From contig JANQQK010000062.1 in the NCBI GenBank assembly GCA_028289375.1, positions 49,825 through 113,824 of the forward strand: a stretch of 64,000 nt of DNA, given 5' to 3'. Within the stretch, counting starts at the first letter, position 1, and the number at the start of each line of letters is the position of its first letter. The notes under the pieces were generated by a model. That model did no database searches. It saw only the letters and a list, made by a program, of their open reading frames with translations, and was not told the DNA's origin. A program made the position numbers and the translations under genes. Source of the stretch: Phycisphaerae bacterium (GTDB taxonomy: Bacteria; Planctomycetota; Phycisphaerae; UBA1845). Shown one piece after another: positions 8,875 to 28,464 of this stretch.

Positions 8875-9398
8875 TTGGCGTCCTCCCGTTTCTTTTTGGG
8901 CCACTTTTGGTCAAGCTCTTCCATGAACTTGATGAACGGAGAGAGATCAAAAGTGTTTGATTCATTTCGATGCCCAACTCTCTGTATATCCCCACGCCCT
9001 CGGTTTTGTTTGATCTTCAGCAGGCCCATCTTGCGCAGCTCGTAACCCCATTTCCGCACTGTTTCCGTGGAGACGCCCAAGTCGATTGCCAGATTTTCCC
9101 AGTACGCGCGAATTTGGTTTCGTTGGTACTTCTGGCTGCCTAATGCAAGTAGGAGCAAGAGGTGTCGCGGCTTGATCTTCGTCCCTAAGAGTTCCGAGTA
9201 CCTCCCAGCGCGTAGGAAGATTCGTGGTAGCTTGATCCATCTTCCGCTTTCGAGCGATTTCCCCCAGACGGCGGTCTTCGCATGGGTTGGCGTCTTCGCG
9301 GTCGCAACACCTTGTGGGGCCGACTTAGTGGTGCGACGCACGCTGGTCTTCTTGGTAGTTGATTTCCCAGTCATCTTGCAACAAGCATAGGAACGCAA
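8871..9398 (-). CDS. Winged/helix-turn-helix DNA-binding protein with Lys/Thr-rich N-terminus
   Basis: AYWENLAIDLGVSTETVRKWGYELRKMGLLKIKQNRGRGD resembles a wHTH; basic N-terminal tail TGKSTTKKTSVRRTTKSAPQ. Confidence 0.7.
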   Translation of the reverse strand: MRSYACCKMTGKSTTKKTSVRRTTKSAPQGVATAKTPTHAKTAVWGKSLESGRWIKLPRIFLRAGRYSELLGTKIKPRHLLLLLALGSQKYQRNQIRAYWENLAIDLGVSTETVRKWGYELRKMGLLKIKQNRGRGDIQRVGHRNESNTFDLSPFIKFMEELDQKWPKKKREDAK

Positions 9399-9574
9399 CA
9401 GCGCCGTTCAAGGTCGTGGGCGCGCGGGGGCATTATCGTGTACTTGTAGTCTCTTACTACGCTCGAAAATAACGTCTCTTATAGTTGGTGCGAATGTACC
9501 ATGGACCACGGGCGAAGTGAAGCAGTTAGGCTGGTGCATCTAGACCAGGCTGGATGGTGCAAAAAAACGCGCAC

Positions 9575-9784
9575 TCATACAACACAAATCTCGGCTGATT
9601 GCGGGTCATCGGGAACCTCGCGGCCAAGGGTCTGCGCTGCGTCGATCCACCCAGCAATGGCATCGCGAATGTTGTCGAGGGCTTCTTCCTTGGTCGCGCC
9701 GCCGCCGACGCAACCCGGTAGACTCGGCACTTCGCATACCCAGCCGCCGTCCTCGTTGTCCGGATAGATGATGACCTGTCTCAT
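9575..9784 (-). CDS. hicB: HicB-family antitoxin (short form, no C-terminal DNA-binding domain)
   Basis: 69 aa: MRQVIIYPDNEDGGWVCEVPSLPGCVGGGATKEEALDNIRDAIAGWIDAAQTLGREVPDD. Confidence 0.88.
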   Translation of the reverse strand: MRQVIIYPDNEDGGWVCEVPSLPGCVGGGATKEEALDNIRDAIAGWIDAAQTLGREVPDDPQSAEICVV

Positions 9785-9862
9785 ACCACTCAGTCTACCA
9801 ATTCAGTCCCAACAAGCCCACATCAAACGCATAATCGCACGTGATCGCCCAATAAGCCACTG

Positions 9863-12800
9863 CTACTTCGACGTCAGCTCAATCGCCGGCACCCAGTCGT
9901 CGCCCGGTGGGGACGTCTGCAAACGCTCGATGTTGGCTTCGAACAGGTCGATGGCGACGTCGTTCGTGCGGATCGCACGACACTTGGCCAAGATCGCCGC
10001 CGCAGCCGACCAGTCCCGCCGCTGAAACGCTGCCACTGCTTCGCCGAACTGCTCCGCATACGCGACCGCGTCGGCTTCCACCTCGCCCGCGCGGCCCAGC
10101 AATTCGTACACCTGCACAGCCTGCGTCTTGCCGACCACCTGCAACCCGCCCAGATGCCGCGTGACGAACGCGTCCTTGGCTGCCCGCTGCGTCGTCTCCG
10201 AAATCAAACACCGCACGCCGAACGCCTTGCAAGCAGGCTCCAACCGGGCAGCCAGGTTCACCGTATCCCCGATGCACGTGTAATCCAGCTTGCTGCTGCT
10301 GCCATAGTCGCCCACGAACACCTCGCCCGAATTCACGCCCACCCGCATCGACAACGCCCGCACCTCCGCATCCAGATCGCCGCCGGCCAACGCGTCTTTC
10401 AACGCGTCCAACGCCTCGAACGAGCGAACCGCAGCCTCACACGCCGCCATCGCATGATCCGTTACCGGGTGTACGGGCGGGTTGAAGAACGCGAAAATCC
10501 CATCGCCCATAAACTTGTTGATCATCCCGTCGCAGTCGATCAGCACCCGGCTCATGGCTTCGAGGTACGGATTCAAAATCTCCCGCGTCCGCGACGCCCC
10601 CAACCGCTCGCTGATCGACGTGAACCCCTTCAAATCACTGAAAAAACAGGTCACCTCACGCGGCACCGGCGACAAATCCATCGCACCCGATCGCTTCGCA
10701 ACCTTGTCGGCCAACTGAGCCGCGATCGCCGGCGACGTGTACTGGGCCAGACTCCGACCAAACGCCCGCTTCTGCCGCTCCTCGGTCAATTGCCGATACA
10801 GCGTTACAAACGTCCACGCCAAGAACGACGCAAGGAACGCCCCGACGATGTCGACATGCCACGACGCGTAGTAGAACGCTGCCACCGCCCCGACGTGCAG
10901 CAGGATCGCGATCACGAGCATCACAGCCAGGCTCACCCACGGATCGCGCGACGTCGTCACCAGTGTCGTCACCATTCCCGATGCCCCAATCAGCAACAGC
11001 ACCATCCAATGCGCCGCCGGCCAGGTGAACCGATTCTGCAACATGCTGTTGATCACGTTTGCATGGGCGAGCACGCCCGGCATCTCACCGAACACGGGTG
11101 AATTGACTGTGTCTGCCACCGCCGTCGCCGTGTATCCGAACAGGCAGATCTTCCCATCGATCAGCGGTCGCAACTGTTCGCGTTGCCGATCGACAGCCGC
11201 CGACAATTCCGCCCGCGCCCGCCTGGTCGCCGCCAACGTATCGCCGTTCTTGTGCTGCTCGACCAGCGACATCGCCAGCCGATCATCGTCCGACAACTCC
11301 GACGCATCGCCACCGTCAGCCAGATACTCTGCCACGGACGTGCCATACTCGGTCACGGTCGCGATCGCCTGCGCTTCGATCGTCTCGATCTCCGCCGTCA
11401 AGGTGTCCGCATCCTGCCCGTCGCGTCGCAGCGCGAACCGCCGGCGAATCAGTCGTTCATAATCCGCATACTTGGCCGGCGCCTCCGCGAGCGACAATCG
11501 CACAAACTGTGCGAGATGATTCGCTTCGATGCCTTCCTCGCGCTCGATGGCGTCACGCAACAGCGGCAATTCCATCACCCGCGACGCCGGCACGTGCTCG
11601 AAACTGTGCTGCCATTCGGGACGATCCGCATCGATGTGCCAGCTGATCAGCGTTCGGCCAGCTTCGTCGAAAGGCACCCGCCACGTCCGACCGCCTTCGC
11701 GATCGGCAAACGACAACACGCCGTCCGACATCGCCATGCCGGCGACGTCGATCTCCATGACATCCGCCGCGAGCGCAAACCCCAGATGCATCACCAGCCG
11801 ACCGCCCGCATCAGCCATCAGCGGCACCCGCCGCATCACCTGATCAACGTGATCCACTTGCAGCACCACCAGCCCCGCGTCTGCGTTTCGCGAAAACCGG
11901 TCCAATGGAAATACCGGCTGAGTCAGGATCTGAATCCGCCCGGTGAGCGCCTCCGGCACTTCCGCCGCCCGCGCCATCACCGCCCGCTCTGCCAACACCG
12001 CGCGATAACCGCGAAGCAAGTCCTCCCGGTCGGCTGACGTCGATTCGATCGACGCGTCTGGCAGTATCGCGGTAAAGGCTTCGGCAAATGTCATGTTCTC
12101 GTCCATCGCCAGCACCTCTGCCATGAGCCGCCGCGCCACGACACGTTTCGCCGGCGCCCACACGCGCTCGACGTCCCAGCCCAATCGATCCGCCGCCTCG
12201 CCCATCGTGGCGTTGAACTGTTCTGCAAGCAGACGTTCCACACGCATCGCATCCAGCAGCCGTTGTGCATCGCGCGTTTCCACGGAGCGCACGTCCGCCG
12301 CCGCGACCAGCGACGCCCGAACCAACGGCAGAATCTCGCCATCGGGTTTTTCAAGTTCGATCAACTCGTCCACGGCCGCCCGAAGTTGGGCCGACGCATA
12401 CCACGGTTCATACAACTGCCCGATCGCCCCGAGGTAGACGTTGCCCGCATCTGACAACGCGGCTGCGAACTCCCCATCGTCATCCACCGCATCGAGCAGG
12501 TTGACCTCTCCGACGATTTCGCCCGCCCGATCCACCGACCAGTCCGGATCCAGACGCGGATCGACGATCCGCTTGGCCGTCGGATCGGAAAAAAACATAT
12601 CCATCAGGATTGCTTGCGCACCAAGCTCGTTCAGTGTCGAAACGAGTTGAGCGTGGTACCGCCTCGGCCAAGGCCACGTGTGCACGTACTCCATCGCGAA
12701 GTCGTTGAGGTCGATCATCACGATGTCATCGTGGGCTTCGACGGGGTTGAAATGGCGGAACTGCCAGTCGAGAAATGCGTGGCTGAAACGTTGAAGCCAT

Positions 12801-12895
12801 CCAGCGTGGCAGACTTCGATCATCGCGAGCGTGATCGTCGTGCCGACAATCAGCCCCCACATCCGCGATCGAATCGTTCCAAGCCATCCACGCAT
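9863..12895 (-). CDS. CHASE2-domain membrane adenylate/guanylate cyclase
   Basis: N-terminal TM and CHASE2-like region (DIVMIDLNDFAMEYVHTWPWPRRYHAQLV...GAQAILMDMFFSD), TM cluster, then class III cyclase (REVTCFFSDLKGFTSISERLG...FMGDGIFAFFNPP...GVNSGEVFVGDYGSSSKLDYTCIGDTVNLAARLE). Confidence 0.93.
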   Translation of the reverse strand: MRGWLGTIRSRMWGLIVGTTITLAMIEVCHAGWLQRFSHAFLDWQFRHFNPVEAHDDIVMIDLNDFAMEYVHTWPWPRRYHAQLVSTLNELGAQAILMDMFFSDPTAKRIVDPRLDPDWSVDRAGEIVGEVNLLDAVDDDGEFAAALSDAGNVYLGAIGQLYEPWYASAQLRAAVDELIELEKPDGEILPLVRASLVAAADVRSVETRDAQRLLDAMRVERLLAEQFNATMGEAADRLGWDVERVWAPAKRVVARRLMAEVLAMDENMTFAEAFTAILPDASIESTSADREDLLRGYRAVLAERAVMARAAEVPEALTGRIQILTQPVFPLDRFSRNADAGLVVLQVDHVDQVMRRVPLMADAGGRLVMHLGFALAADVMEIDVAGMAMSDGVLSFADREGGRTWRVPFDEAGRTLISWHIDADRPEWQHSFEHVPASRVMELPLLRDAIEREEGIEANHLAQFVRLSLAEAPAKYADYERLIRRRFALRRDGQDADTLTAEIETIEAQAIATVTEYGTSVAEYLADGGDASELSDDDRLAMSLVEQHKNGDTLAATRRARAELSAAVDRQREQLRPLIDGKICLFGYTATAVADTVNSPVFGEMPGVLAHANVINSMLQNRFTWPAAHWMVLLLIGASGMVTTLVTTSRDPWVSLAVMLVIAILLHVGAVAAFYYASWHVDIVGAFLASFLAWTFVTLYRQLTEERQKRAFGRSLAQYTSPAIAAQLADKVAKRSGAMDLSPVPREVTCFFSDLKGFTSISERLGASRTREILNPYLEAMSRVLIDCDGMINKFMGDGIFAFFNPPVHPVTDHAMAACEAAVRSFEALDALKDALAGGDLDAEVRALSMRVGVNSGEVFVGDYGSSSKLDYTCIGDTVNLAARLEPACKAFGVRCLISETTQRAAKDAFVTRHLGGLQVVGKTQAVQVYELLGRAGEVEADAVAYAEQFGEAVAAFQRRDWSAAAAILAKCRAIRTNDVAIDLFEANIERLQTSPPGDDWVPAIELTSK

Positions 12896-12934
12896 GCGGG
12901 CATCGTAGCCGCACGGGTGGATGATGTTAACGCT

Positions 12935-13921
12935 TTATCGTTTCATCAGGAGACGCATGTTGCGGCGCTGCACACCACGCGGCTGCAGAACCGAGTATCG
13001 CGTCGCGCGTGAACCGCGAAGGATGTTGCCGGCAGAAAGCCGTCGAAGATTGAACGTGTTGCCGATACCGAAATCGCCCTCGGATCGCACCACGAACGGC
13101 GGACGAATGAAGGGAAGCGTTGGCGTGAACCCGATGAGGTCGATTCCGCCGACCGGGTTATCAAGCTGGGCAAACTCGCGCGCGGCGATCGTAGACCCCG
13201 GTACCAGCACGCCAGGCCCGCCCGGATTCCGAGTCGAGAACGACACTTCCTCATCGGTCAGGCCAATCGGATTGAAAAAGTCGACATACCGATCAAACAG
13301 ATCTTGCTCGACCCATGCCAGCATGGCTGTCTCGGTCGTCACATACTCGCTCGGTAACACCGATCGCTCGACATCTTCCTTCTTCAACGACGCCAACACC
13401 TCGCCAAGCCCCGACCGACTCAGCGAAATCTTCACGTAGTCAATCGTCGGATTGACCACGATCTCCCAGCCGTCCGTTCCCTTCTTGGCCAGTGTCGCGA
13501 CCGTTGAATCAACCACCAGATCAGTCCGACGCTCGCCCTCGGCTGACCCACCGCGAATCGCTCCGTAGCCAAGACCCAGGCGGATGGTTTCTTCGGTTTC
13601 GCTGCGGTAGAAATCGTCGATGCTCGCCAGCGTCACGCGGCGGACACTGATGACCGTGCTGTCCCCGAATTTCAACGTCACACGCGACCGAAACGACGTC
13701 TTGATCAGCGTCCCCGCAGACAACCGATCGTCCTTCTTCACCGCCGACCAGCCGTCCGACGTATCCGCAGCCGTCCCCATCGGCGCCTTGAGCACTTTGC
13801 CCTTCACCTCCATGACGACGGCTTCGCGATTCTCGGTCGCATCCGCATCCGCGTTCGCCTGCTGCGCCAGCAGCGGCGTCGCGAGTGTCATCAAAATGAG
13901 CAGCATGCCACGAACCATCAC
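12935..13921 (-). CDS. Secreted FecR-domain protein
   Basis: Signal peptide MMVRGMLLILMTLATPLLAQ; FecR-like VKKDDRLSAGTLIKTSFRSRVTLKFGDSTVISVRRVTLASIDDF. Confidence 0.85.
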   Translation of the reverse strand: MMVRGMLLILMTLATPLLAQQANADADATENREAVVMEVKGKVLKAPMGTAADTSDGWSAVKKDDRLSAGTLIKTSFRSRVTLKFGDSTVISVRRVTLASIDDFYRSETEETIRLGLGYGAIRGGSAEGERRTDLVVDSTVATLAKKGTDGWEIVVNPTIDYVKISLSRSGLGEVLASLKKEDVERSVLPSEYVTTETAMLAWVEQDLFDRYVDFFNPIGLTDEEVSFSTRNPGGPGVLVPGSTIAAREFAQLDNPVGGIDLIGFTPTLPFIRPPFVVRSEGDFGIGNTFNLRRLSAGNILRGSRATRYSVLQPRGVQRRNMRLLMKR

Positions 13922-13927
13922 GCGTTC

Positions 13928-14524
13928 CTATTTCGACCCATGCGCCGGTGCGAGCAGTTCCTTCTCGCCCGATTCGAACCGACCCGTCCTGGCCAGGTAA
14001 TCCTCAGCCGACCCCAACGCCCCGAGCACCTCATCACCGGTCACGACCTCATACGTCGGCCCGTAATTCATGATTCGGTAATGCACCACCTCGCGCAGGG
14101 CGAATCGACGATCGCTGAGGTGCTGATTCTGCGTCAAGAATGTACCCACCCCGTGCGGCAAGTCGCACATCTGAAAGATCATATACGCCAATGTGCTCCG
14201 ATCCAGCATGCTGTTCGATTTCAGCGTCCAGAACGACTTCACGAACCCACGGGACTCCAAATCGGCAAACCGGGCGTCGAAATCCTCATGCGGATCCTCA
14301 CCTTCCACCGCGATCAGCACCGCCCGACAACCCTCGTCAAACGTCAGCACCGGCTGCGTGGCCACGTAGTGAATAAACTCGACCTCACCCAACGTGGTGT
14401 GATCCTGCGACGGCTCGAACGTTGGCTGCACGACACATCCGACCGGCAGCAGCAGGGCGGTCACCGCAACTCCGGCCAACAACCCGCGCCGAATTGTCCG
14501 CAACCCGCCCATCAAAAGCTCCAC
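13928..14524 (-). CDS. Putative lipoprotein of unknown function
   Basis: GVAVTALLLPVGC lipobox-like N-terminus; overlaps 3' end of upstream barrel gene. Confidence 0.75.
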   Translation of the reverse strand: MELLMGGLRTIRRGLLAGVAVTALLLPVGCVVQPTFEPSQDHTTLGEVEFIHYVATQPVLTFDEGCRAVLIAVEGEDPHEDFDARFADLESRGFVKSFWTLKSNSMLDRSTLAYMIFQMCDLPHGVGTFLTQNQHLSDRRFALREVVHYRIMNYGPTYEVVTGDEVLGALGSAEDYLARTGRFESGEKELLAPAHGSK

Positions 14525-15939
14525 GTCATCCCGACCAGCAAGAACGTCCGCGTCGTCTGATCTTCAAACGCACGCCCTGGGAAAAACGTCCCCAACCGCG
14601 CCGTCGCAGACAAGTCCGACGACACCTGCCAATTGGCAAAATAGTCCATCTCCCAGCCAAGATAACCCGACGGCACCGTCGCCAGCGGATCGGAAACAGC
14701 CGCCCGATGACGATGCTTGTAATACAAGAACCAGTTCGTCCCCAGTTCCAACCCCCGCAGCCGTTCATGATCCGGGAACGGGAAGAACGATGCGCCCATC
14801 CGCCAGATGTGAATGTTGCTCAGCCGCGGTGCAAACGACAGGCCTGTATCGCGGTAGCCAAACCCGATGAAACTCTCGTCCCGAAGTCCCCGAGATACGC
14901 CACCCAGCGAGTCGGTCGGGCTGTCGACCCGATCGTCCTCCCCACTGGCGAACATATACTCGACGCCCACCCGAGGCCGCATCGGATGATCGAACAGGTA
15001 TTCCAATTCAATGTCCCACGCCCACGCGTTGATCCGGTTCTTGCGCTGCGTCCGACGATCGCCGTAACTCCGCCCGGTCTGAAAAACCCACTCCGTCGAG
15101 TAGGACAGATTGGGCACAATCTCACCGAGCGAACCCACGCCCACATAGAACGAGTCGTATTCGTAATTCTGAAGCCAACCCGGCACGTTGTCGGAAATCT
15201 GATCATCCTGCCAAAGCACGTAAGCGAAAGGCCGATGCCGCTCAAACCCGGTATACCGAACTTCCGCACCGGCGAAGTTCCGCCGCGTTCGCTCCGGATT
15301 CCGCGAAAGGTCGAAATCCTGCGAGCTGCCGATCGTCCGGCCAAACAAACCCGTTACCTGCACATCGCGATACGTCCCACGAATCCATACCTGATCCAGC
15401 GGTGTTGACAGCACATAACCGGTACCGAATTCCGTGAAGTCCCGCCCGACCTTGAACTCGACGTTGTATCCAAGCGATCCACCGCCATACGCGGCGTTCG
15501 CCCGCGCGAGATCAAACTTGTAAAACCCGCGCTCGAGGTTCATTCCCTCGGTGTCGTTCTCTTCGTCGATCTCAAATTGATCGCCGCCGTTGTAATCCAG
15601 ATAGCTCAGCCGCGACCGCACGTAGAATTCATGCGCCCCACGATCCAGCGACAGCCGGCTCCACAACCGCAGATCGGTACGCCGCAGCGTGCGGCTGCTC
15701 TCGATGCCGTCGTCGTACAACAGGGTGTAGAAGCTGAGATAACCGCCGTAGTCAAGCTCGACGCGCTGCGTGGCGGGGGCCAGCTTTTCTCGCTCAGCCC
15801 GGATCATGTCGGTGATGACACGCTGCTGATTCAGGAAGGCGTCGGGTTCGGGCTGCTGAGCGAGCGCGATCGTCGCCCAGCACGATGTCACCATCGCCAG
15901 CCAAAGCACGCGCCAATTGCCCGCAGATTGCAGCGTCAT
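14512..15939 (-). CDS. Outer-membrane beta-barrel protein, alginate-export-like
   Basis: Signal peptide; alternating aromatic beta-strand pattern (LSFYTLLYDDGIESSRTLRRTDLRLWSRLSLD...), terminates in ...LLVGMTWSF with C-terminal Phe typical of OM barrels. Confidence 0.75.
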   Translation of the reverse strand: MTLQSAGNWRVLWLAMVTSCWATIALAQQPEPDAFLNQQRVITDMIRAEREKLAPATQRVELDYGGYLSFYTLLYDDGIESSRTLRRTDLRLWSRLSLDRGAHEFYVRSRLSYLDYNGGDQFEIDEENDTEGMNLERGFYKFDLARANAAYGGGSLGYNVEFKVGRDFTEFGTGYVLSTPLDQVWIRGTYRDVQVTGLFGRTIGSSQDFDLSRNPERTRRNFAGAEVRYTGFERHRPFAYVLWQDDQISDNVPGWLQNYEYDSFYVGVGSLGEIVPNLSYSTEWVFQTGRSYGDRRTQRKNRINAWAWDIELEYLFDHPMRPRVGVEYMFASGEDDRVDSPTDSLGGVSRGLRDESFIGFGYRDTGLSFAPRLSNIHIWRMGASFFPFPDHERLRGLELGTNWFLYYKHRHRAAVSDPLATVPSGYLGWEMDYFANWQVSSDLSATARLGTFFPGRAFEDQTTRTFLLVGMTWSF

Positions 15940-16183
15940 GTCCTCGCCCCGTGGCCGCCCGCACCACGCCGACCACTCCGCTTAGGTACCACCGACCCCC
16001 GGCAAGGGCAAGACGCCGGTCCCAAAAAGTGATGCATTGACAAATGGCACGCGAACGCAGTTTGCATCCCGATTGAGGAATGTACGGAGTTGTGGTGCAT
16101 GCAGAGTTTGCGATTCGGATCACAGCACCGCTCGATATGATCGCATCCAACAGAACACCGCCACCTGTGAAAGGACGACGACC

Positions 16184-17209
16184 ATGCACACCGCGAGCCG
16201 ATTCCTCTGCACCATCATCACCGCCGCCTGCACCACGCACGCCGTCGCCGAAACGGAAAAGGCCGACCCACCCATCGAAGCCACCATTCGCAAGCAAGCC
16301 GAAAAACTCGACGCATTCGTCACGTCCCGCCTCGCCAGGGACTTTCTCAAAGCAGCCAAGCACCTGCCCGAGCAGACGCCCCGCATTGTGTATCGCAACG
16401 AGGACAAATCAGAATACTGGTCCGAGCACGCGGTTCAGCAACTGCCCGCCGACCAACGCGACAAACTGGAAAAACTCGAACTGCCGCAGCGCTTCTACTA
16501 CACCACCCGATTCGGCACGCCCATGGCCTACTGCCGCGCGATCGACCTCGCAGCCGGCGCAGGATTCACCTCCGTCGAGGGCATACGCATCCTCGACTTC
16601 GGCTACGGTGGCATCGGCCATCTTCGCACGCTCGCCTCCCTCGGTGCCGACGTCACCGGCGTCGAGGTTTACGCCATCCTGCCCGCGCTCTACGACAACC
16701 CCGGCGACCGCGGGTTGATCCAGGGTCCCAATGGCAAGACAGGTCACCTCAGCCTCGTGCAGGGTCGCTGGCCCGGTGAGTTCAACGCCCGATCAAGCGT
16801 CGGCAGCGGCTTCGATCTGTTCATGAGCAAGAACACGCTCAAGAATGGCTACGTCAATCCCGAAAAGGAAGTCGACCCGCGCATGCTGATCGATCTCGGC
16901 GTCCCGCCCGAGCAGTTCGCCCGCGCCGTCCACGCCGTCCTCAACCCCGGCGGCTTGTTCGTGATTTACAACCTCTGCCCGCCGCCCAACGAGGAAGGCA
17001 AGGACTACATCCCCTGGGCCGACGGCCGCTGCCCATGGTCGAAGGACCTGCTAAAGTCCATCGGCTTCGAAATCGTCGCCTTCGACGTCGTCGACAACGA
17101 CAAGGCCCGCCAAATGGGCAAACTCCTCGGCTGGGACGACCGCGACCCACCCATGGACGTCGACAACACGCTGTTCAGCATGTACACGATTCTCAGGAAA
17201 CCTAATTAG
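16184..17209 (+). CDS. Secreted protein with SAM-methyltransferase-like fold
   Basis: ATG at 16184 after AAGGACGACG; signal peptide MHTASRFLCTIITAACTTHAVAE; motif I-like IRILDFGYGGIGHLRTLASLGADVTGVEV and late FARAVHAVLNPGGLFVIYNL. Confidence 0.75.
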   Translation: MHTASRFLCTIITAACTTHAVAETEKADPPIEATIRKQAEKLDAFVTSRLARDFLKAAKHLPEQTPRIVYRNEDKSEYWSEHAVQQLPADQRDKLEKLELPQRFYYTTRFGTPMAYCRAIDLAAGAGFTSVEGIRILDFGYGGIGHLRTLASLGADVTGVEVYAILPALYDNPGDRGLIQGPNGKTGHLSLVQGRWPGEFNARSSVGSGFDLFMSKNTLKNGYVNPEKEVDPRMLIDLGVPPEQFARAVHAVLNPGGLFVIYNLCPPPNEEGKDYIPWADGRCPWSKDLLKSIGFEIVAFDVVDNDKARQMGKLLGWDDRDPPMDVDNTLFSMYTILRKPN

Positions 17210-17227
17210 GCTGAAGGTAAAGACACG

Positions 17228-17854
17228 CTAACGTTCAATGTGACCCGCAAATTCTGCGGAGACGTCGTCCGCAAAGTCCGCGAAGCCAGTGTGATTCGCA
17301 TGATTACACCGTCCCAAGTCAATCTCAGATGCGATTTCACCGGCAATAAGTGCAAACTTCTCGCCTGCTCGCGAAGAGGCTCTAACCATCGCGTCAAGCG
17401 TGTTCTTGGGTGAATCGTCGAGCTTGGTGACGGCTGGGACTTCGTGCGAGTTGTGAAGTCCAAGCGCTGTTTTGACCGCTTTGGGGTCGTCCAATAGCCA
17501 TACTTCGAGATGAGGATTGGCTTCGCCAATTGCCGTTGGGATACGATCTTGCGCTGCCCGCCCATCCTCACGTGCCGCACGGAGTTTGGCGAAACGGGCA
17601 TCCTTTCCTTTGTCGCGGTCAATGACTGCAACTACCCCGTCGCAATCTTGGTCTATCGCTTGTCGAACAACCAGCTTGAGCGTCCGCTCATAACCTCTTC
17701 CGAGTTTATGAAACCTGCGAGTTCGAAGGTGTTTGCCCTGTTTCCAAAAAGTGGTTTGAGCGACTGACACTTCCTTGTGGATAAGTGTTGTGACAAGATT
17801 CGGCACTGCCAGTTCGTCTCGCTCGCCGTCGAGAAGGAAGCTGATTCGAGTCAT
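17228..17854 (-). CDS. DUF4276/RloB-like (TOPRIM-like) protein
   Basis: MTRISFLLDGERDELAVPNLVTTLI...CDGVVAVIDRDKGKDAR...IPTAIGEANPHLEVWLLDDPKAVKTAL; start overlaps the stop of the AAA gene (ATGA at 17851-17854). Confidence 0.7.
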   Translation of the reverse strand: MTRISFLLDGERDELAVPNLVTTLIHKEVSVAQTTFWKQGKHLRTRRFHKLGRGYERTLKLVVRQAIDQDCDGVVAVIDRDKGKDARFAKLRAAREDGRAAQDRIPTAIGEANPHLEVWLLDDPKAVKTALGLHNSHEVPAVTKLDDSPKNTLDAMVRASSRAGEKFALIAGEIASEIDLGRCNHANHTGFADFADDVSAEFAGHIER

Positions 17855-18798
17855 TGTGGCTTTGCTACCATTCCATCTTCGCCCTGATTGTACCACACCT
17901 CGCCGAGCATGAACTCATCCAAGAAAATGTCGAGCCTTTCCTTGTCGGCTGGCTCGATCGTTCGACTCCCGTCCGAGTTTCTGCGAAAAACAAGCACCTG
18001 ATCTCGTGATAAGTCGACGGCGTCAAGCAGGTACGGCGAGTGAGTCGTGAGGATCACCTGCGACGGCCTGTCGCTATGTTGCCCAGTTACGATTCGCCTG
18101 AGTAAGTTTACGATATCGCAGAGTCGCTTTGGATGCACGCCGTTCTCGGGTTCCTCGATCATGATGACCGATGGCGGCTTTGGATGATAGCTCATTGTTA
18201 GGTAGAAAAGGATCGCACGGACGCCCACTGAAATATGGCTCGGCGGCAGTGGGTCAGCGCAATTCTTGATCTTCAGTACGATTTGGCGAGTGTCACGTGT
18301 CGGAGTGAGAACGGTCATTTGCTCAACATCGTCAATCGTTTGAATGAACTCGCTGACCAATTGGTCAAAACGGTGGCGATCATGACGTAATAGAAAATCG
18401 ACAAGTGCGGGGATCTCTCTCCCGTCACCCAAGATTTCGGGAACCACGCCTGGTTTTTCTTCGAAACCCAGGCTGCTTAGCGCCACTCCGTCAGCTGGTA
18501 GATTGAACACTTGGGGATGTCGGATCGATTGTAGTGGAGATGTATCTCCTTTCAGTCCGCCATTCTCGAACGTAATCGGTCCAAATTCGGTTTGTGCAAC
18601 GATTCTGATGGCCTTGGCTCTTAAGTCTCCCCAAGCATCATTGTGTTGAAAGGACTCTCCGCGCAAACACGCACGGCAACAGGACAGAAACGATGACTTG
18701 CCGGAGTCGTTGGGGCCGATAAGTACGGTAAGCGGCCGTAGCTCGACATCTAATTCTCGAAAACACCGAAAGTTCTGAATCGAAATACTTTTTAGCAC
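17851..18798 (-). CDS. AAA-family ATPase (RecF/OLD-like)
   Basis: ISIQNFRCFRELDVELRPLTVLIGPNDSGKSSFL (Walker A), VIMIEEPENGVHP (Walker B), ILTTHSPYLLDAV. Confidence 0.9.
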   Translation of the reverse strand: MLKSISIQNFRCFRELDVELRPLTVLIGPNDSGKSSFLSCCRACLRGESFQHNDAWGDLRAKAIRIVAQTEFGPITFENGGLKGDTSPLQSIRHPQVFNLPADGVALSSLGFEEKPGVVPEILGDGREIPALVDFLLRHDRHRFDQLVSEFIQTIDDVEQMTVLTPTRDTRQIVLKIKNCADPLPPSHISVGVRAILFYLTMSYHPKPPSVIMIEEPENGVHPKRLCDIVNLLRRIVTGQHSDRPSQVILTTHSPYLLDAVDLSRDQVLVFRRNSDGSRTIEPADKERLDIFLDEFMLGEVWYNQGEDGMVAKPQ

Positions 18799-18856
18799 AG
18801 TCCTACCAATGCTCCTTCACGAGAACCGTGGACTTGGCAGAGAATGGGGTACGACG

Positions 18857-20263
18857 TCATCGGTCGCAAGTGATTTCAACGATACAACGGAGGATTGCTT
18901 CATGATTCTCAGCTACCGTTGACCTCGCATCAAAGGTTATGGCTTCATCACCAATGCGACAGATTACCGCCGGATCACTATTCCGCAACCGCCTCGCCGC
19001 TTCACCCGCACCCATCCCCGACGGCTTCCACCGAACCACCACCGTCTCCAACGCCTGACCCGGCAGGGCACCGCCGCCGGTGAACGTCTCATCCTCGGCC
19101 ACCTCAAACGCCTCCCCCGGCAACGCCGTCGCCAACGCGTCCCGCAACCGCTCCGCCCGATCGCGAAGCTCATCCATCGACGCCGTCAGCATCCGCAACA
19201 CCGGCACGCCCGTCGTCGCCGTCTCCATATCCACAAACAACCGCAGCGTCGCCTCCAACGCCAGCAGAACCAGCTTGTCCACCCGAAACGCCCGCATCAG
19301 CGGATGCGACTCGATCCGTGAAATCACATCCGCCCGCCCCACGATCAAACCCGCCTGCGGACCGCCCAACAGTTTGTCCCCCGAAAAACAAACCACATCC
19401 ATCCCCGCCGCAATCGACGCCGGCGCATTCGGCTCCGCTGGCAGCCCAAGCGCCGCATGGTCGAAGATGGCCCCGCTGCCCAGATCATCAATCGCCAGCA
19501 ATCCCCGCCGATGCGCCGCCTCCGCCAGTTCTTCCAGCGTCGGCTCCTCGGTGAAACCCACGATCTTGAAATTGCTGTGATGCACGCGCACAAAAGCCGC
19601 CGTCGATTCCGTCACCGCCCCCTCAAAATCCGCGATCCGCGTCCGATTCGTCGTCCCCACCTCCCGCAACCGACAACCCGCCGTCGCCATGATGTCCGGC
19701 ATGCGAAACGACCCGCCAATCTCCACCAACTGCCCCCGCGACACCACCACTTCCCGATCCGCACACAACGCCGCCAGCGTCAGCACCGTCGCAGCCGCAT
19801 TGTTGTTCACAACGGTGGCTGCCTCCGCCCCGGTCATCCGACAGATCAGCTCCCGCACATGCGACGTCCGTTTCCCACGCTGCCCCGTCTCCAGATCCAA
19901 CTCGACGTTGCAATACCCACCCGCCGCCTCAGCCAGCGCAGCCACCGCCGCCGCACACAACGGCGCCCGTCCCAACCCCGTATGGATCACGATCCCCGTC
20001 GCATTGATCACCCGTCGCAACGACGGCTTCGACGCATCGGTCAAGCGACGCCGCGCCATCTCCAGCACCGCCGCAACATCCACGCTCGGCATCGCCGACC
20101 CGTTGGCCAACACCTTCGCCCGCGTCTCATCAATCGCCCCGCGCAACGCATCCACCACGAGCGACCGCGGATGCGCCTCGCACCACGCAGCCACCTCCCC
20201 GTGCGACAGCAATTCACCCACCGCCGGCAACGATCGCAGCAATTCGGTCTGCTCAGGCGTCAT
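18857..20263 (-). CDS. selA: L-seryl-tRNA(Sec) selenium transferase
   Basis: LRRVINATGIVIHTGLGRAPL..., VNNNAAATVLTL, GDKLLGGPQAGLIVG (PLP Lys); ATGA overlap with selB. Confidence 0.95.
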   Translation of the reverse strand: MTPEQTELLRSLPAVGELLSHGEVAAWCEAHPRSLVVDALRGAIDETRAKVLANGSAMPSVDVAAVLEMARRRLTDASKPSLRRVINATGIVIHTGLGRAPLCAAAVAALAEAAGGYCNVELDLETGQRGKRTSHVRELICRMTGAEAATVVNNNAAATVLTLAALCADREVVVSRGQLVEIGGSFRMPDIMATAGCRLREVGTTNRTRIADFEGAVTESTAAFVRVHHSNFKIVGFTEEPTLEELAEAAHRRGLLAIDDLGSGAIFDHAALGLPAEPNAPASIAAGMDVVCFSGDKLLGGPQAGLIVGRADVISRIESHPLMRAFRVDKLVLLALEATLRLFVDMETATTGVPVLRMLTASMDELRDRAERLRDALATALPGEAFEVAEDETFTGGGALPGQALETVVVRWKPSGMGAGEAARRLRNSDPAVICRIGDEAITFDARSTVAENHEAILRCIVEITCDR

Positions 20264-22206
20264 ACCGTCACACCATCAGCCAACACGCGTCTGTCACCAT
20301 CCCGCACGGTGAATTTCACCCGATCCAGATGCTCCATCAGCGGCACCGCATACTTGCGACTCGAGTTCAATCGCTCCCGAACCTCGGAAACCGTCGCTCC
20401 GCCACCCGCCTCAATCATATCCGCCACGACCTGTCGCATGTTGCGTTCGTGCTCGGCTGTCAGAAAAATCGCACCGTCAATTTCCACCAGGTCACCATAC
20501 GCCGTCGCGATCTTCACCAGTTTCTGCACGCGTTTCACGTCCGACCCCGCCCCCTTCGCCACGTCCGCCAAACTCGGCGGCTGATAGGCCCCGGCGTCAA
20601 ACGCTTTCATCATTGCGTCATAGACCTTCTGATCCTGCCCCGACATCGCCGGTGCAAACGCAGCCGCACAGACATATCGGCCACGCACGACGATCGACTT
20701 TTTCTTCAACAACAATTCCAGCATCGCCCGACCCAAGCCAGCGCTCGTTTTTCGCTCCAGCCAACCCACAAACGCATCCGTCGCGCAGCCCGGATCGTCA
20801 GGCCTCTGCTTGTGAAACCGCTCCAACCACCGATGCGCCCGATCCGAGAGCGACTCGATCACAGCCGGATGCACGCGGCGATCCCAGCCGTTCAGCGATA
20901 TCCACTTTTTGGCATCGGCAAGCTGTGCACCGACGTGCGTTATCTCCACCACGCCAACCCCCGTCCACGCCGACAATTGCAAGTCCGACACATCCCCAAA
21001 CCCTGTCTCAATCAGCACCTGCTCAACACGAGCCGTCGCGTCGCCCGTCCGCAACGCATCCATCGCCGCCAGTTCCATATCACGATCGCGCGACCATCGC
21101 TTCCCGATTGGCCGCAGCACCACGCCACCGCCGATCGTACGCGCGTCGTTCTCCTCGCGCACGATGAACCGCTGACCATACGCCGCCAGGAACCGTTCGC
21201 GCGTCCGCAACTGTACGTACGCACTCGCCCCAGGTTCGATTGCACATCGGTCCAGCGGCACGACACGGGCTGCCACGTCATGCGTCCCCATGCAGACACG
21301 CACCGTCGCATACGGTTTCAACGCCCGCGTCGCATTGGCCAGTACTTCCAGCCACACGTCCATCCGCTTCGTAGGTACGACAAACCCCGGCGTCGCCAAC
21401 TCCTGCCCGCGTTCGATCCGGTCCTTGTCCACGCCGATCAGATTCAACGCCGCCCGCTGCCCCAATTGCAACTGCTCGGTGTCCGTTCCGTGCGATTGCA
21501 TGTCCCGCACCCGACACGTTTCACCGGCCGGCAGCAATGCCAACGCATCTCCCGACGACACCTGCCCCGACAGCACCGATCCCGTCACCACCGTGCCACG
21601 ACCCTGCACCGAAAACACCCGATCGATCGCCATGCGAAATGGCCGATCGCGCGCTGCGTATTCGTCCACGGTCGCCGCATCCACCAACGCAGTCTTCAGC
21701 GTCTCGATGCCAGCCCCTGTCACCGATGACACCGGCACCACGCTCGCCGCTTCAAACGCCGACCCTGCCAGCAACTCGCGCACCTCCTCGGTCACGATCT
21801 CGACCATCGTCTCATCCACAACGTCACACTTTGTGACCGCCACCACCGCCCGCGAAATCCCCATCAACTTGAGAATGTCGACATGCTCGACGGTCTGCGG
21901 CATCACCGAATCGTCCGCCGCCACCACGATCAACGCCACGTCCACCCCCGTCGCCCCAGCCACCATCGTCCGCACGAACTTTTCATGCCCGGGAACATCG
22001 ACTACGCCAAAATCGACGTCGCCCACGGTCAGGTGCGCAAACCCCAACTCGATCGTCATCCCGCGCTTCTTCTCTTCCGGAAGACGATCCGTGTCGACCG
22101 ACGTCAACGCCTTCACCAGCGACGTCTTGCCATGATCAATATGCCCAGCCGTCCCGAGAATCAGAAACCGCCGCGAGGAATCCTCCGATGTCGATGCTGC
22201 ATCCAT
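20260..22206 (-). CDS. selB: Selenocysteine-specific translation elongation factor
   Basis: FLILGTAGHIDHGKTSLVKALTSVDTDRLPEEKKRGMTIELGFAHL...VDVPGHEKFVRTMVAGATGVD; winged-helix C-terminus. Track start 23175 is an artefactual extension. Confidence 0.95.
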   Translation of the reverse strand: MDAASTSEDSSRRFLILGTAGHIDHGKTSLVKALTSVDTDRLPEEKKRGMTIELGFAHLTVGDVDFGVVDVPGHEKFVRTMVAGATGVDVALIVVAADDSVMPQTVEHVDILKLMGISRAVVAVTKCDVVDETMVEIVTEEVRELLAGSAFEAASVVPVSSVTGAGIETLKTALVDAATVDEYAARDRPFRMAIDRVFSVQGRGTVVTGSVLSGQVSSGDALALLPAGETCRVRDMQSHGTDTEQLQLGQRAALNLIGVDKDRIERGQELATPGFVVPTKRMDVWLEVLANATRALKPYATVRVCMGTHDVAARVVPLDRCAIEPGASAYVQLRTRERFLAAYGQRFIVREENDARTIGGGVVLRPIGKRWSRDRDMELAAMDALRTGDATARVEQVLIETGFGDVSDLQLSAWTGVGVVEITHVGAQLADAKKWISLNGWDRRVHPAVIESLSDRAHRWLERFHKQRPDDPGCATDAFVGWLERKTSAGLGRAMLELLLKKKSIVVRGRYVCAAAFAPAMSGQDQKVYDAMMKAFDAGAYQPPSLADVAKGAGSDVKRVQKLVKIATAYGDLVEIDGAIFLTAEHERNMRQVVADMIEAGGGATVSEVRERLNSSRKYAVPLMEHLDRVKFTVRDGDRRVLADGVTV

Positions 22207-22425
22207 GGAAACATTATTGTCGTCACCTTCCACACAAGCCAGCGCTTCGGATGTCCCATCACTTCGGCGGGTGTCCCACCCCCGGCGCGCCGGGATTGGG
22301 GGAGTCGAATCCTGGACTCCCGCAAGCAAATGGTTGCGAAACACGCCGACCACGTGTGCAATGCTGTACATCGACGGAAAGTACGGATCAGACCCACACA
22401 AGTTGAGTACCCTTACGGGCGAGAT

Positions 22426-24135
22426 ATGAAGCAAGTACTCAAGATCACCATTGTTGGATTGCTCGCCATCATCGGCTGTCAGCCGTCGCATCCGGAATGG
22501 ATCGCGATCGAGCAGAACGGCATGGTCGCAGCCGACTCGCATTACGCCTCGGAAATCGGCATGGAAGTCCTGCGGGCCGGCGGGAATGCGATCGATGCCG
22601 CGACGGCTGTGTCGTTCGCTCTGGCGGTCACGCGCCCCTACAGCACCGGTCTCGGCGGCGGCGGATTCGCCCTGTACTACGACGCCAGGTCGCAACAGGC
22701 GCACGCATACGACTTCCGCGAGATGGCGCCAGCGGCTGCGACGGCGGACATGTTCGAGGTCGCGCTTGCGGAAGGGCGGTTTGGCCGGGAACCAAGTCAA
22801 CGTGGTGCGCTCGCCGTTGCGGTTCCGGGGTTGGTGGCGGGTCGACTCGCGATGCACGAACGCTTCGGTACCTGGTCGCGCGCGGAACTCATCGCGCCGG
22901 CCATCCGTCTGGCGCGTGAGGGATTCAACATCGACGCCGATTACATCAAGCGGTGTCGCGAGGTCGTGAAATACTATCGCCGCGACCCGAGCATGAAGAT
23001 CACGCACCGCTACATCTGGCAGCGCCATCTCCGAGAAGGAAAGATTCGCAAGCCCGACTCGCCGTTGGTTCAGCCAACGCTGGCCCGGTTGCTCGATGTG
23101 ATCGCCAGCGACGGCGCGGATGGGTTCTATCAGGGCGCGGTGGCAGACGCGATCGTCGCCACGATGCGGGAACATGGCGGGATCATCACCAAGGAAGACC
23201 TCGCAAACTATCGGGTCATCGAACGCGAACCGATCCGTTCAACCTACCGCGATTACGATCTGATTCTGATGCCGCCGCCATCGTCGGGCGGTGTTTGCAT
23301 CGCCGAGGCGTTGAACATTCTGGAGAATGTCGATCTGCAGGCCATCTGGCGTCGCGATCGCACCGAAGCGCGTCACTACATCATCGAAGCGCTCAAGCAC
23401 GCCTTCGCCGATCGTGCGCGGCATCTTGGTGACACCGATTACGCATCAGCCCCGATCGACCAGATGCTCAGCAAGACGTACGCGTTGAGCCTGTCGGCTG
23501 AGATCGGTCCCGAATCGTCGCATGAGTTGGACGGGTACGGCACGATCCGCTTTCTCGACGATGCCGGCACGAGCCACTTCAGCATCATGGACCGCTGGGG
23601 CAACGTGGTGGCCAGCACCGAGACAATCAACACGTCGTTCGGTTCGCTGCTGGCGGTCGAGGATTGGGGATTGATCCTGAACAACCAGATGGATGACTTC
23701 GCCGCGTATCCCGACCGCGCGAACTACTACGGATTGAGCCAGTCCGCCAAGAACGCCCCGGTCCCCGGCAAACGCCCGCTGTCGAGCATCTCCCCGGTGA
23801 TCGCCCTGAAAGAGGGCGATGCGGTGTTGGCGCTGGGCGCATCGGGCGGCCCGCGGATCATCAGTTCCGTCCTGCAGGTTTTCCTGAATCTGACGGATTT
23901 TGAACTGCCGCTGGAGGATGCGGTTGATTTTGTGCGGGTGCACCATCAGTGGCGCCCGAACGAGGTTTACTTCGACAAAAAGCCCGCTGAGGAGCTGGCA
24001 GAGGGGCTTCGCAGACGAGGGCATTTTCTGTCTTCGCAGCGTAAGACGGGTGTCGTGCAAGTGATCTTACGAAATCGCTCTCAATTGAGTGGCGCGTCGG
24101 ACCCGAGAAAGGGCGGCAGGCCTGCTGGGCACTAG
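22426..24135 (+). CDS. ggt: Gamma-glutamyltransferase (lipoprotein)
   Basis: MKQVLKITIVGLLAIIGCQPS lipobox; GMEVLRAGGNAIDAATAVSFALAVTRPYSTGLGGGGFALYY; autocatalytic GTSHFSIMDRWGNVVASTETINTSFGS. Confidence 0.93.
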   Translation: MKQVLKITIVGLLAIIGCQPSHPEWIAIEQNGMVAADSHYASEIGMEVLRAGGNAIDAATAVSFALAVTRPYSTGLGGGGFALYYDARSQQAHAYDFREMAPAAATADMFEVALAEGRFGREPSQRGALAVAVPGLVAGRLAMHERFGTWSRAELIAPAIRLAREGFNIDADYIKRCREVVKYYRRDPSMKITHRYIWQRHLREGKIRKPDSPLVQPTLARLLDVIASDGADGFYQGAVADAIVATMREHGGIITKEDLANYRVIEREPIRSTYRDYDLILMPPPSSGGVCIAEALNILENVDLQAIWRRDRTEARHYIIEALKHAFADRARHLGDTDYASAPIDQMLSKTYALSLSAEIGPESSHELDGYGTIRFLDDAGTSHFSIMDRWGNVVASTETINTSFGSLLAVEDWGLILNNQMDDFAAYPDRANYYGLSQSAKNAPVPGKRPLSSISPVIALKEGDAVLALGASGGPRIISSVLQVFLNLTDFELPLEDAVDFVRVHHQWRPNEVYFDKKPAEELAEGLRRRGHFLSSQRKTGVVQVILRNRSQLSGASDPRKGGRPAGH

Positions 24136-24292
24136 ATATCGCCATGGTGAGCCGATACAGTAAAAATCGAGGCTCCAACAATTTTGTGCAAATACCGCAG
24201 GTGGTTGCCGGTGTTTGTGTTGGAGGTCGAAAGGTGGTTGCATATCCAGACGCTGGCGGGTCTTACGATGCGAAGGCGGATGGGGTATTGAA

Positions 24293-25096
24293 ATGACACT
24301 TCACGGGTCGACATTCATGCAGTCTCCGTGCATCCCTGATGGGGCACCGGAGATTTCCGCAACGATCATCGCCGGTCCGGGCGTCGGGCAGACGATCAAG
24401 CTGCGGCGTGTGGCGTCGCTGTTCGGTGGGAAACGTGGCTGCAAAGTCGTGCTTCAGCACGCAACGGTCGGGCGTCGGCACTGTGTGATTGTCAACACAG
24501 GCCAGCAGTTGATTCTGCGTGACCTCAATACCAAGGGACAGACGCTGCGCAACGGGCTTAAGGCCGAGGAAGAAGTCCTCGCCGATGCCGATCGCTTGAA
24601 GGTTGGCCCCTGGGAGTTCCGCCTCGACATTACCATGCGGGAAGTTTCCGGTGCGAGTGACAGCCCGGTGATTGTGGATCTCGAACCGGATCCGACCATC
24701 TTCGCCATGGAACGCGAGGGCAAGCCGCTGACGAAGCTGTCGCGGGCCGTTTCCGTGATTGGTCGCTCAGCTGGCGTGGACTATCAGGTTGAGGACCGCG
24801 AGGTTTCCGGTACCCACGCGATCATTTTCACCTACCTGCACAAGCCTGCGATCTTCGATCTCGTCAGCGAGAACGGCACATTCGTCAATGGCCAGCGCGT
24901 GATGTTCAGCATGCTCAATGACGGTGATGAGATTTCCCTTGGGGCGTGCAAGATGCTGTTCCGTGCCCACGTGCCAGGCCAGTCAGCCAAACCAAGCGGC
25001 GACAAAACCAAAACGCTCAAGCCCACTCCCTTTGCCACCCCAGAGGGCACCTATTCCGACCTGATCGATCTGTCGAACGAATCGATCTCGCGCTAA
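24293..25096 (+). CDS. Protein with two FHA domains
   Basis: GKRGCKVVLQHATVGRRHCVIVNTGQQLILRDLNTKGQTLRNG and VSVIGRSAGVDYQVEDREVSGTHAIIF...DLVSENGTFVNGQRV...LNDGDEISLG. Confidence 0.88.
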   Translation: MTLHGSTFMQSPCIPDGAPEISATIIAGPGVGQTIKLRRVASLFGGKRGCKVVLQHATVGRRHCVIVNTGQQLILRDLNTKGQTLRNGLKAEEEVLADADRLKVGPWEFRLDITMREVSGASDSPVIVDLEPDPTIFAMEREGKPLTKLSRAVSVIGRSAGVDYQVEDREVSGTHAIIFTYLHKPAIFDLVSENGTFVNGQRVMFSMLNDGDEISLGACKMLFRAHVPGQSAKPSGDKTKTLKPTPFATPEGTYSDLIDLSNESISR

Positions 25097-25128
25097 CCCC
25101 ATCCTTGCTTTGGATTCATGTTGGCTTC

Positions 25129-25180
25129 CCTGTGCGCAAAGATTCTGCGCTTTGGAGTTTGCTGCACAGGAACTTATAAT
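25129..25180 (+). promoter_or_regulatory. Putative hutH promoter with 7-bp inverted repeat around the -35 region
   Basis: TTGGAG (25152-25157) - 17 nt - TATAAT (25175-25180), ATG at 25189; CCTGTGC (25129-25135) / GCACAGG (25164-25170) inverted repeat. Confidence 0.5.
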
Positions 25181-25188
25181 CTGCGGCG

Positions 25189-26736
25189 ATGACAGAATCG
25201 GCCAAACGTGCGGTGGAAACGGTACTGATCGATGGTTCGTCGCTGACGATCTCGGCGTTGGATGCGGTTTATCTGCACCCGTTGTCGGCGGCGCTTTCGG
25301 CGGATGCGTGGGGGGCGGTGGATCGTTCGCGCGCGCGGGTGGTGGCGATTGCGGAGAAGGGCGATCCGGTTTACGGGGTTAATACCGGGTTTGGAAATCT
25401 GTGTCGCAAGCGTGTCGGGTCGGATGACCTTGATCGGCTTCAGTACAACCTGATCCGGTCGCATGCTGTCGGGGTCGGCCCCGAGGCGCCCGCCGCTGTG
25501 GTGCGTTGGATGTTGTTGTTCAAGATCGTCGCGTTGGCGAAGGGATACAGTGGTGTTCAACGCAGCACGATTCAGTGTCTGTGTGACATGCTGGCGCATG
25601 ACATTCTGCCGGTGATTCCGAATCAGGGATCGCTCGGGGCGAGCGGGGATTTGGCGCCTCTGGCGCACATGGTGTTGCCGCTGATCGGCGATGGGCGCGT
25701 CAGGGTTTCCGGTGAAAAACTCAACGCAGTTGACGCGTTCAAGAATGCGGGGATCGAGCCGGTCACGCTCGGGGCCAAGGAAGGGCTTGCGCTGATCAAT
25801 GGCACGCAATTCATGAGCGCGTACGGTGCTGCGATTCTCGTGCGAGCAAAGCGTGCACTGAAACAGGCGGACATCATCGCTTCGATGTCGCTCGAAGCGC
25901 TGCGCGGCAGTATTCAGCCATTCGACGCGCGGCTGCACGAGGTGAGGCCTCACCCGGGGGCGATCGAGACGGCGGCCAACTTCCGCGCGTTGTTGCGAGA
26001 CAGTGAGGTATTGGCGTCGCACGCCGATTGCGACAAAGTGCAGGATCCCTATTCGCTGCGGTGCATTCCGCAGGTGCACGGGGCGATACGCGATGTTGTG
26101 CGCCATGCCATTGAAGTTGTCGAACGCGAAATCAATGCGGTGACCGACAATCCGGTGATCTTCGAGGATGGGACGGCCATCAGCGGTGGGAATTTCCATG
26201 GCGAGTCGATTGCGTTTGCGTTGGATTACCTGGCCATCGCGCTGTGCGAATTGGCGAGTATATCCGAGCGGCGGATTTATCTTCTGCTGAGTGGGCATGA
26301 CGGGTTGCCATTGCTGCTGATGCAGGACACGGGGCTGAACAGTGGGTTCATGTTGCCGCAATACACAGCGGCTGCTTTGGTGAGCGAGGCGAAGATTCTG
26401 GCGTCGCCGGCGTCGGTCGATTCGATTCCGACGTCGCTGGGGCAGGAGGATCATGTCAGCATGGGGGCGACGTCTGCGACGAAGGCGTGGCGGACGATGA
26501 ACAGTGTTGAGACAGTGTTGGCGATTGAGCAGATGTGTGCGGCACAGGGGATGGACTATCGCGCGCCGCTGAAGGCAGGAGTTGGTCCGCAGACGGCGCT
26601 GGAGACGATACGCGAGCGGATCACGCACACGGAAGAGGATCGGCTGTTCGGGGAGGACATCGAGGTGTCGCATGAGCTGTTGCAATCGTGCGCGGTGTTG
26701 CGTCGGGTGGAGAATGTGGCTGGGAAACTGGCGTGA
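25189..26736 (+). CDS. hutH: Histidine ammonia-lyase
   Basis: VYGVNTGFGNL, GSLGASGDLAPLAHM (MIO-forming ASG), SIPTSLGQEDHVSMGATSA. Confidence 0.97.
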   Translation: MTESAKRAVETVLIDGSSLTISALDAVYLHPLSAALSADAWGAVDRSRARVVAIAEKGDPVYGVNTGFGNLCRKRVGSDDLDRLQYNLIRSHAVGVGPEAPAAVVRWMLLFKIVALAKGYSGVQRSTIQCLCDMLAHDILPVIPNQGSLGASGDLAPLAHMVLPLIGDGRVRVSGEKLNAVDAFKNAGIEPVTLGAKEGLALINGTQFMSAYGAAILVRAKRALKQADIIASMSLEALRGSIQPFDARLHEVRPHPGAIETAANFRALLRDSEVLASHADCDKVQDPYSLRCIPQVHGAIRDVVRHAIEVVEREINAVTDNPVIFEDGTAISGGNFHGESIAFALDYLAIALCELASISERRIYLLLSGHDGLPLLLMQDTGLNSGFMLPQYTAAALVSEAKILASPASVDSIPTSLGQEDHVSMGATSATKAWRTMNSVETVLAIEQMCAAQGMDYRAPLKAGVGPQTALETIRERITHTEEDRLFGEDIEVSHELLQSCAVLRRVENVAGKLA

Positions 26737-26790
26737 TGCACGAGGCCAAGTCGGCGTGCGTTGCGAATTGGATGAGATTCAGGAGGTTGA

Positions 26791-28464
26791 ATGATGTCGC
26801 AGACGGCTGAGGTGGGAATCGCAGGAGCACGTGAAGTTCGGGCGCCGCGCGGGACGGAGATTACGTGCAAGAGCTGGCTGACCGAAGCGCCGATGCGGAT
26901 GATCATGAACAACCTCGATCCCGAGGTGGCCGAGAACCCCGACGAGTTGGTGGTCTATGGTGGGACGGGCAAGGCCGCTCGAACCTGGCAGGACTTCGAT
27001 CGCATCGTTGGGGCGTTGAAGGAGTTGGAGGTCGACGAGACGCTGCTTGTTCAGTCGGGGCGACCGGTGGGCATCATCAAGACGCACGCTGACGCACCGC
27101 GTGTGCTGATTTCCAATTCGATGCTCGTGCCGAACTGGGCCAACTGGGATGAATTTCGTCGGCTGGAACAGCTTGGCCTGACGATGTTCGGGCAGATGAC
27201 GGCGGGCAGTTGGATTTACATCGGCACGCAGGGGATTTTGCAGGGGACGTACGAGACATTCGGAGCGGCGGCGCGGCAGCACTATGGCGGCGACTTGTCG
27301 GGCAAGCTGGTCGTGACGGCTGGTCTGGGAGGCATGGGCGGTGCTCAGCCGCTGGCGGTCACGATGAACAACGGCGTCTGTCTTGCGGCTGAGATCGATC
27401 CGGTGCGTGTTGATCGCCGTTTGCAGACGCGGTACCTCGACAAGAGCACCACCGATTTCGACGAGGCAATGGCGTGGTGTCGGGAAGCTCAAGCGGCGAA
27501 GAAGCCGTTGTCGGTCGGCTTGGTCATGAACGCGGCTGACATGTTGGCCGAGATGATCGCCCGCGACATTCTGCCCGACATGCTGACCGATCAGACGTCG
27601 GCCCACGATGCGCTTGTTGGCTACTACCCGAACGGCATGACGTTCGACGACGCCAACGCACTGCGCAAGAGCGATCCGGACAAATACGTGACCGAATCGA
27701 TGCGGACGATGGGCGAGCACGTGTCGTCGATGCTCGAGTTGCAGAAGCGTGGGGCGATCACGTTTGATTATGGCAACAACATTCGCGGGCAGGCGCTCAA
27801 AGTCGGCGTCGACAACGCGTTTGATTTCAAGGGATTCGTACCGCTGTACATCAGGCCTCTGTTTTGCGAAGGGTCGGGGCCGTTCCGATGGGTGGCGCTC
27901 TCCGGCGATCCGAAGGACATTGCCCGTACCGACCAAGCCGTGCTCGAGACTTTTCCGGAGAATGACCATCTGTGTCGCTGGATTCGGATGGCGTCCGAGC
28001 AGGTGGCCTTTCAGGGGTTGCCGTCGCGGATTTGCTGGCTGTCGTATGGCGAGCGGGCGAAGATGGGGCTCGTGTTCAACGATCTGGTGGCCAAGGGCGA
28101 GATCAGTGCACCGATCGTGATTGGCCGCGATCATCTGGATTGTGGCTCGGTCGCATCGCCGAATCGCGAGACGGAGGGCATGAAGGATGGGTCGGACGCT
28201 ATTGCCGATTGGCCGATCCTGAACGCGTTGGCCAACACCGCTTGCGGAGCGACGTGGGTGAGCGTGCATCATGGCGGTGGTGTGGGCATGGGCTATTCGA
28301 TCCACGCGGGGCAGGTGATCGTGGCCGACGGTACGTCCGAGGCGGCGAAGCGATTGGAACGCGTCCTGACGACCGACCCCGCCATGGGCGTCTTCCGCCA
28401 CGTCGACGCCGGTTACGACAAGGCGCAGACGGTCGCCGAGGAACGGGGCGTGAAGTTGCCCTAA
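26791..28464 (+). CDS. hutU: Urocanate hydratase
   Basis: [70 protein letters not shown]. Confidence 0.97.

Follow-up and report, generated by a model that had tools for sequence, protein, structure and literature searches.

A two-gene cassette, genes A and B, is located behind the gene pair selB and selA in a 64,000-nucleotide stretch of the genome of a Phycisphaerae bacterium (hereafter, the window). It encodes an OLD-type ABC ATPase and a small acidic protein, probably with a TOPRIM fold. In our opinion, at a probability of about 0.6, these genes constitute a horizontally mobile defence cassette, abortive-infection or toxin-antitoxin-like in character, of the AAA + DUF4276 kind that is represented by the candidate system HEC-01. 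We infer the role in phage defence, as well as the toxicity, the substrate and the phage trigger of the pair. If defensive, the cassette would be a minimal module consisting of an ATPase and a TOPRIM-like protein (315 and 208 amino acids, respectively) from a phylum with little-studied immunity, and would offer a simple test bed for the restraint and release of a nuclease by an OLD-type ATPase.

Genes A and B and their products

The source genome comprises 4.99 Mb in 94 contigs. According to the ORF calls in the window, the order of genes on the minus strand is selB, selA, a gap of 58 bp, gene A and gene B. The host gene selA (18,857–20,263, minus strand; Pfam SelA, 2.2e-137) lies outside the module and forms its conserved flank, being found in 52 of 60 relatives. 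A consensus promoter or terminator was sought in this gap (18,799–18,856), which separates the stop of selA from the start of the codirectional gene A, and neither was found. Gene A (17,851–18,798, minus strand) begins with GTG and encodes 315 amino acids; gene B (17,228–17,854, minus strand) begins with ATG and encodes 208. The stop codon of A and the start codon of B share the tetranucleotide ATGA (17,851–17,854, minus strand), and the same −4 overlap occurs in most homologues, which suggests translational coupling of the two genes. Both reading frames, their overlap and every motif cited in the preliminary description were confirmed. On the other side, gene B ends 18 bp from a convergent methyltransferase-like gene (16,037–17,209, plus strand; weak match to Methyltransf_23), which is also outside the module. 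This flanking gene has an apparent signal sequence and is patchily distributed, occurring in 11 of 60 relatives.

Gene A is an OLD-type ABC ATPase with all motifs intact, in agreement with the RecF/OLD-like identity proposed earlier. This compact protein of the RecF/OLD/PtuA type contains GPNDSGKSS and IMIEEPENG, and its functional elements are Walker A (residues 28–35), the signature (S190/G192), Walker B with two glutamates (215–216) and the THSP switch (252–255). Walker A, the signature, Walker B together with both its Glu residues, THSP and a C-terminal GExW are invariant across 24 homologues of A. Pfam assigns the protein to AAA_15 (9.7e-26) and AAA_21 (2e-24), and the best among PADLOC models is HEC-01A (3e-39), while AbiLi is matched at 1.4e-18. 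The closest solved proteins by sequence are OLD of Thermus and PtuA. Foldseek with the AlphaFold2 model (pLDDT 93.6) retrieved PtuA, retron PtuA, OLD and SMC heads with E-values down to 1.5e-14.

Gene B carries GVVAVIDRDKGKDAR and NPHLEVWLLDD, and its set of acidic residues includes D9, D13, D79, D81, E117 and D123, accompanied by W119 and K150. In TOPRIM enzymes, acidic motifs follow strands 1 and 3 of the fold, and the first motif acid is usually Glu. The AlphaFold2 model of B (pLDDT 93.5, pTM 0.90) shows this layout, with D9-G10-x-x-D13 at the end of strand 1 and D79-x-D81 at the end of strand 3. The corresponding motifs, [DE]Gxx[DE] and DxD, are kept in 39/39 homologues of B, whose mean column identity is only 31%; an acid at position 117, W119, D123 (38/39) and K150 (38/39) are kept as well. 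In 18 of these 39 proteins, including B of the window, the acid that opens the first motif is Asp. The match of motifs and predicted topology indicates that B probably has a TOPRIM fold. The acidic TOPRIM-like core described earlier agrees with the invariant acids and the confident model, but Foldseek with this model against PDB and viral models gave nothing at E ≤ 0.001. When PDB sequences were searched with a profile of B, the hits were limited to unrelated or designed proteins.

The family of B is less clear-cut. The preliminary description regarded it as an RloB/DUF4276-like protein. In Pfam, RloB (PF13707) was found at 0.012 and 16.2 bits, below the gathering score of 31.5, and B itself passes no cut-off, including that of DUF4276; the DUF4276 model is, however, matched by 27 of the 39 homologues. 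In PADLOC, B matched HEC-01B (3.3e-5), and one HEC-01B model matched 28/39 homologues. In profile comparisons, the probability was 90.8% against canonical DUF4276, 21% (weak, with both motifs in register) against OLD-TOPRIM, 2.7% against DUF4435/AriB and 0.2% against an unrelated control. B is described here as a DUF4276/RloB-related TOPRIM-like protein and a candidate metal-dependent nuclease.

Comparison of homologous loci indicates that the A-B pair is one unit. In 52 of 53 loci, the gene directly upstream of the B homologue is an A homologue, and the two genes mostly overlap by 4 bp; the set includes some genomes twice, from two collections, and the single B locus without A upstream is on a short contig. 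The recurrence of the pairing in 52/53 loci and the retention of the acidic residues in 39/39 homologues show that these features are not due to chance. The distances within the A and B families covary (r = 0.926, a value reached in 0 of 2000 permutations), with shared ancestry contributing to this correlation. At canonical DUF4276 loci, an ATPase of the family of A was present in 20/20 examined.

Distribution and genomic context

The cassette is accessory, compositionally foreign and horizontally acquired. Its GC content is 0.52 versus 0.60 and its GC3 is 0.51–0.55 versus 0.73–0.79; it lies close to the 1.5-kb segment of the window that is lowest in GC. Homologues of B were found in 7/60 near relatives, 36/397 genomes of the class and 12/392 genomes of the phylum, the own genome being counted in each case. 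The named relatives of B in the genome_contigs collection all belong to Planctomycetota, mostly to Phycisphaerae or Phycisphaerales, and the module is absent from the same-genus relative. This presence/absence pattern excludes universal housekeeping conservation. The selA flanks of 11 relatives contain neither A/B nor the methyltransferase-like gene behind selA, and no exact empty site can be defined because 0/11 of them keep the order of the window beyond selA. The earlier view of a cargo-like insertion behind selA is thus well founded on low GC3, patchy presence and a site not seen in the 11 relatives read. A search for tRNA genes in the window gave none, only short chance repeats border the cassette, and no homologue of B was found in phage records, plasmid records or IMG/VR.

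In other genomes, the cassette stands alone near alaS, recR, acs, rho, metH, argG and other genes, the names being derived partly from Pfam and partly from reading the sequence. When 94 neighbours were examined with PADLOC, most hits fell into one-member families, many of them general in kind, such as kinases, a DinG helicase and a sigma-54 regulator. The argument from defence islands fails: these neighbours are mostly housekeeping, and no island surrounds the cassette in the window. If the cassette is defensive, such modules can stand alone behind conserved genes and would be missed by scans restricted to defence islands.

Several individual loci deserve mention. In three genomes (L050, L071 and L073), alaS lies about 60–90 bp upstream of A-B and is codirectional with it, as selA is in the window, and in another genome the pair is at the end of the codirectional recR (L051, 6325–6975). 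A preference of the cassette for tRNA-related neighbours (selA, alaS, lysS) was considered and dropped, because the alaS cases come from a single lineage and the cassette is found elsewhere at recR, acs, rho and metH. In four genomes of one family (L116, L117, L120 and L125), a HAD phosphatase gene directly follows A-B, sometimes overlapping it; its product reads like a phosphoglycolate phosphatase, and the gene may belong to the host and be co-transcribed with the pair, or may be a third member. At L052 (3335–5367), the pair is behind an ORF with ParB-like and methyltransferase parts and another ORF, perhaps a mobile element. In one neighbour set (A6), a protein matches the PADLOC Drt8 model (DRT-type) at 5.4e-157.

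Relation to known systems

Judging by sequence, the pair fits the candidate system HEC-01 best and is a diverged representative of candidate anti-phage pairs whose family is widespread. HEC-01, a PADLOC candidate of the AAA + DUF4276 type embedded in Hma, has the same two-gene order, and both members of the pair match its models with the E-values given above. In contrast to HEC-01, B of the window is divergent, falling below the Pfam DUF4276 threshold, and the pair is alone behind selA, with no embedding in an Hma system observed. Several HECs were reported to have antiviral activity (PMC12988326); in the open literature, no report of HEC-01 itself being tested was found.

The bicistronic pairs AbiL (AbiLi/AbiLii) and RloA/RloB likewise combine an AAA ATPase with an RloB-type TOPRIM_OLD effector (PMC10440598), whereas B of the window remains under the RloB threshold. 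Resemblance to mad3/mad4 of MADS was also noted (A scores 112.7 bits with MAD3 and B 17.3 bits with MAD4), but these scores compare with NCBI curated cut-offs of 420 and 160 bits, respectively, and no other mad genes were recognised beside the pair, so that full MADS membership was rejected.

The preliminary description compared the pair with PARIS and with OLD/Gabija-type defence and suggested a PADLOC check, which gave HEC-01 as the best match. PARIS (AriA/AriB) likewise has a split OLD-type ATPase and a TOPRIM effector, generic AriA models match A, and the DUF4435 motif string EG..D, DRD, E resembles that of B when compared by eye. Membership in PARIS was nevertheless discarded: PADLOC returned no AriB model for B at E-values up to 10, no DUF4435 match was found in the genome, and hhalign gave the low probability mentioned above. 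By analogy, the pair may still work like PARIS. Septu and retron I-A attracted attention because the best solved-structure matches of A are PtuA chains (E 1.5e-14). However, A of the window is shorter than PtuA, its partner B has no HNH match and so is not PtuB, and no Rfam RNA was detected in positions 9000–27000. Gabija and single-chain OLD proteins were rejected as well, since A and B are separate genes of 315 and 208 amino acids, no GajB helicase stands beside them, and the neighbours are selA and the methyltransferase-like gene.

Possible mode of action and competing explanations

In the mechanism that we propose, the two genes would be co-translated and their products would function as a unit, as their linkage and covariation suggest. 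By analogy with PARIS, Septu and AAA:TOPRIM toxin-antitoxin pairs, the ABC-type ATPase head of A most likely dimerises on ATP, keeps B inactive and senses a cue of infection. Freed B would then cut nucleic acid using an acidic metal-binding pocket formed by D9, D13, D79, D81 and probably E117. The most plausible target would be a host RNA such as tRNA, with growth stopping before phage release. There are precedents for individual parts of this scheme. In Escherichia coli, toxic TOPRIM_OLD/RloB-like proteins are neutralised by the AAA ATPases with which they are paired, and AbiL is an abortive-infection pair built on the plan of an ATPase plus effector (PMC10440598). AriA releases AriB, which cleaves tRNA (PMC12409363), and pairs of an ATPase with a TOPRIM protein were described with BREX (PMC12839542). 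On the other hand, an ATPase of the OLD class can have a role outside defence, as reported for Cran1 (PMC12796447). The defence reading is weakened by the failure of B to pass Pfam or to find a Foldseek match, by Asp in place of the usual Glu in motif I in 18 of 39 homologues, by the housekeeping neighbours, by the lack of a phage or plasmid homologue in the records searched, and by the status of HEC-01 as only a candidate.

A stand-alone toxin-antitoxin or addiction pair, in which the ATPase A would act as antitoxin to the toxic nuclease B and the pair would persist through self-maintenance and not through phage defence, is an unlikely explanation, although the most probable of the rivals. 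In E. coli, pairs of the AAA:TOPRIM_OLD and RloB-like kinds have been validated as toxin-antitoxin systems (PMC10440598), and patchy insertions of a single cassette outside defence islands agree with such a role; however, its mechanism overlaps abortive infection and is inseparable from it by sequence, and in PADLOC the family counts as candidate defence. It is doubtful, to a similar degree, that the pair represents a Planctomycetota-centred split OLD subfamily, distinguished by Asp for Glu in motif I and an extra E-x-W...D, with a distinct nucleic acid target, such as a specific tRNA, and a habit of forming lone cassettes behind housekeeping genes and not in defence islands.

It is improbable that A and B are the two parts of a split OLD nuclease acting in DNA-targeting OLD-like or anti-plasmid restriction, where phage or plasmid DNA would be nicked as in Gabija or by JetD of Wadjet. 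Both the sequence and the fold of A align with OLD and PtuA, and the motif register of B fits OLD-TOPRIM, but Pfam does not find the signature of the OLD TOPRIM family in B, the profile probability of B is only 21%, and no helicase (GajB), HNH (PtuB) or SMC partner is nearby.

A housekeeping pair for DNA repair or RNA processing that is merely often lost is very improbable. It would account for vertical stretches such as the order alaS-A-B, shared by three genomes of a family, and A-B before the HAD phosphatase, in four genomes of another, but the pair is present in less than 10% of the class genomes, has a foreign composition, is missing from the same-genus relative and occupies different sites in most lineages. 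Least credible is a catalytically dead B, a TOPRIM-derived regulatory or binding protein: Asp indeed replaces the usual Glu in motif I and no significant fold match was obtained, but an acid is retained at every motif position in all the homologues despite their low column identity.

With regard to the proposed two-gene defence cassette, one further element of A may be pointed out: the C-terminal sequence LGExW at residues 298–302 is invariant or nearly so in A homologues and is a candidate contact to B.
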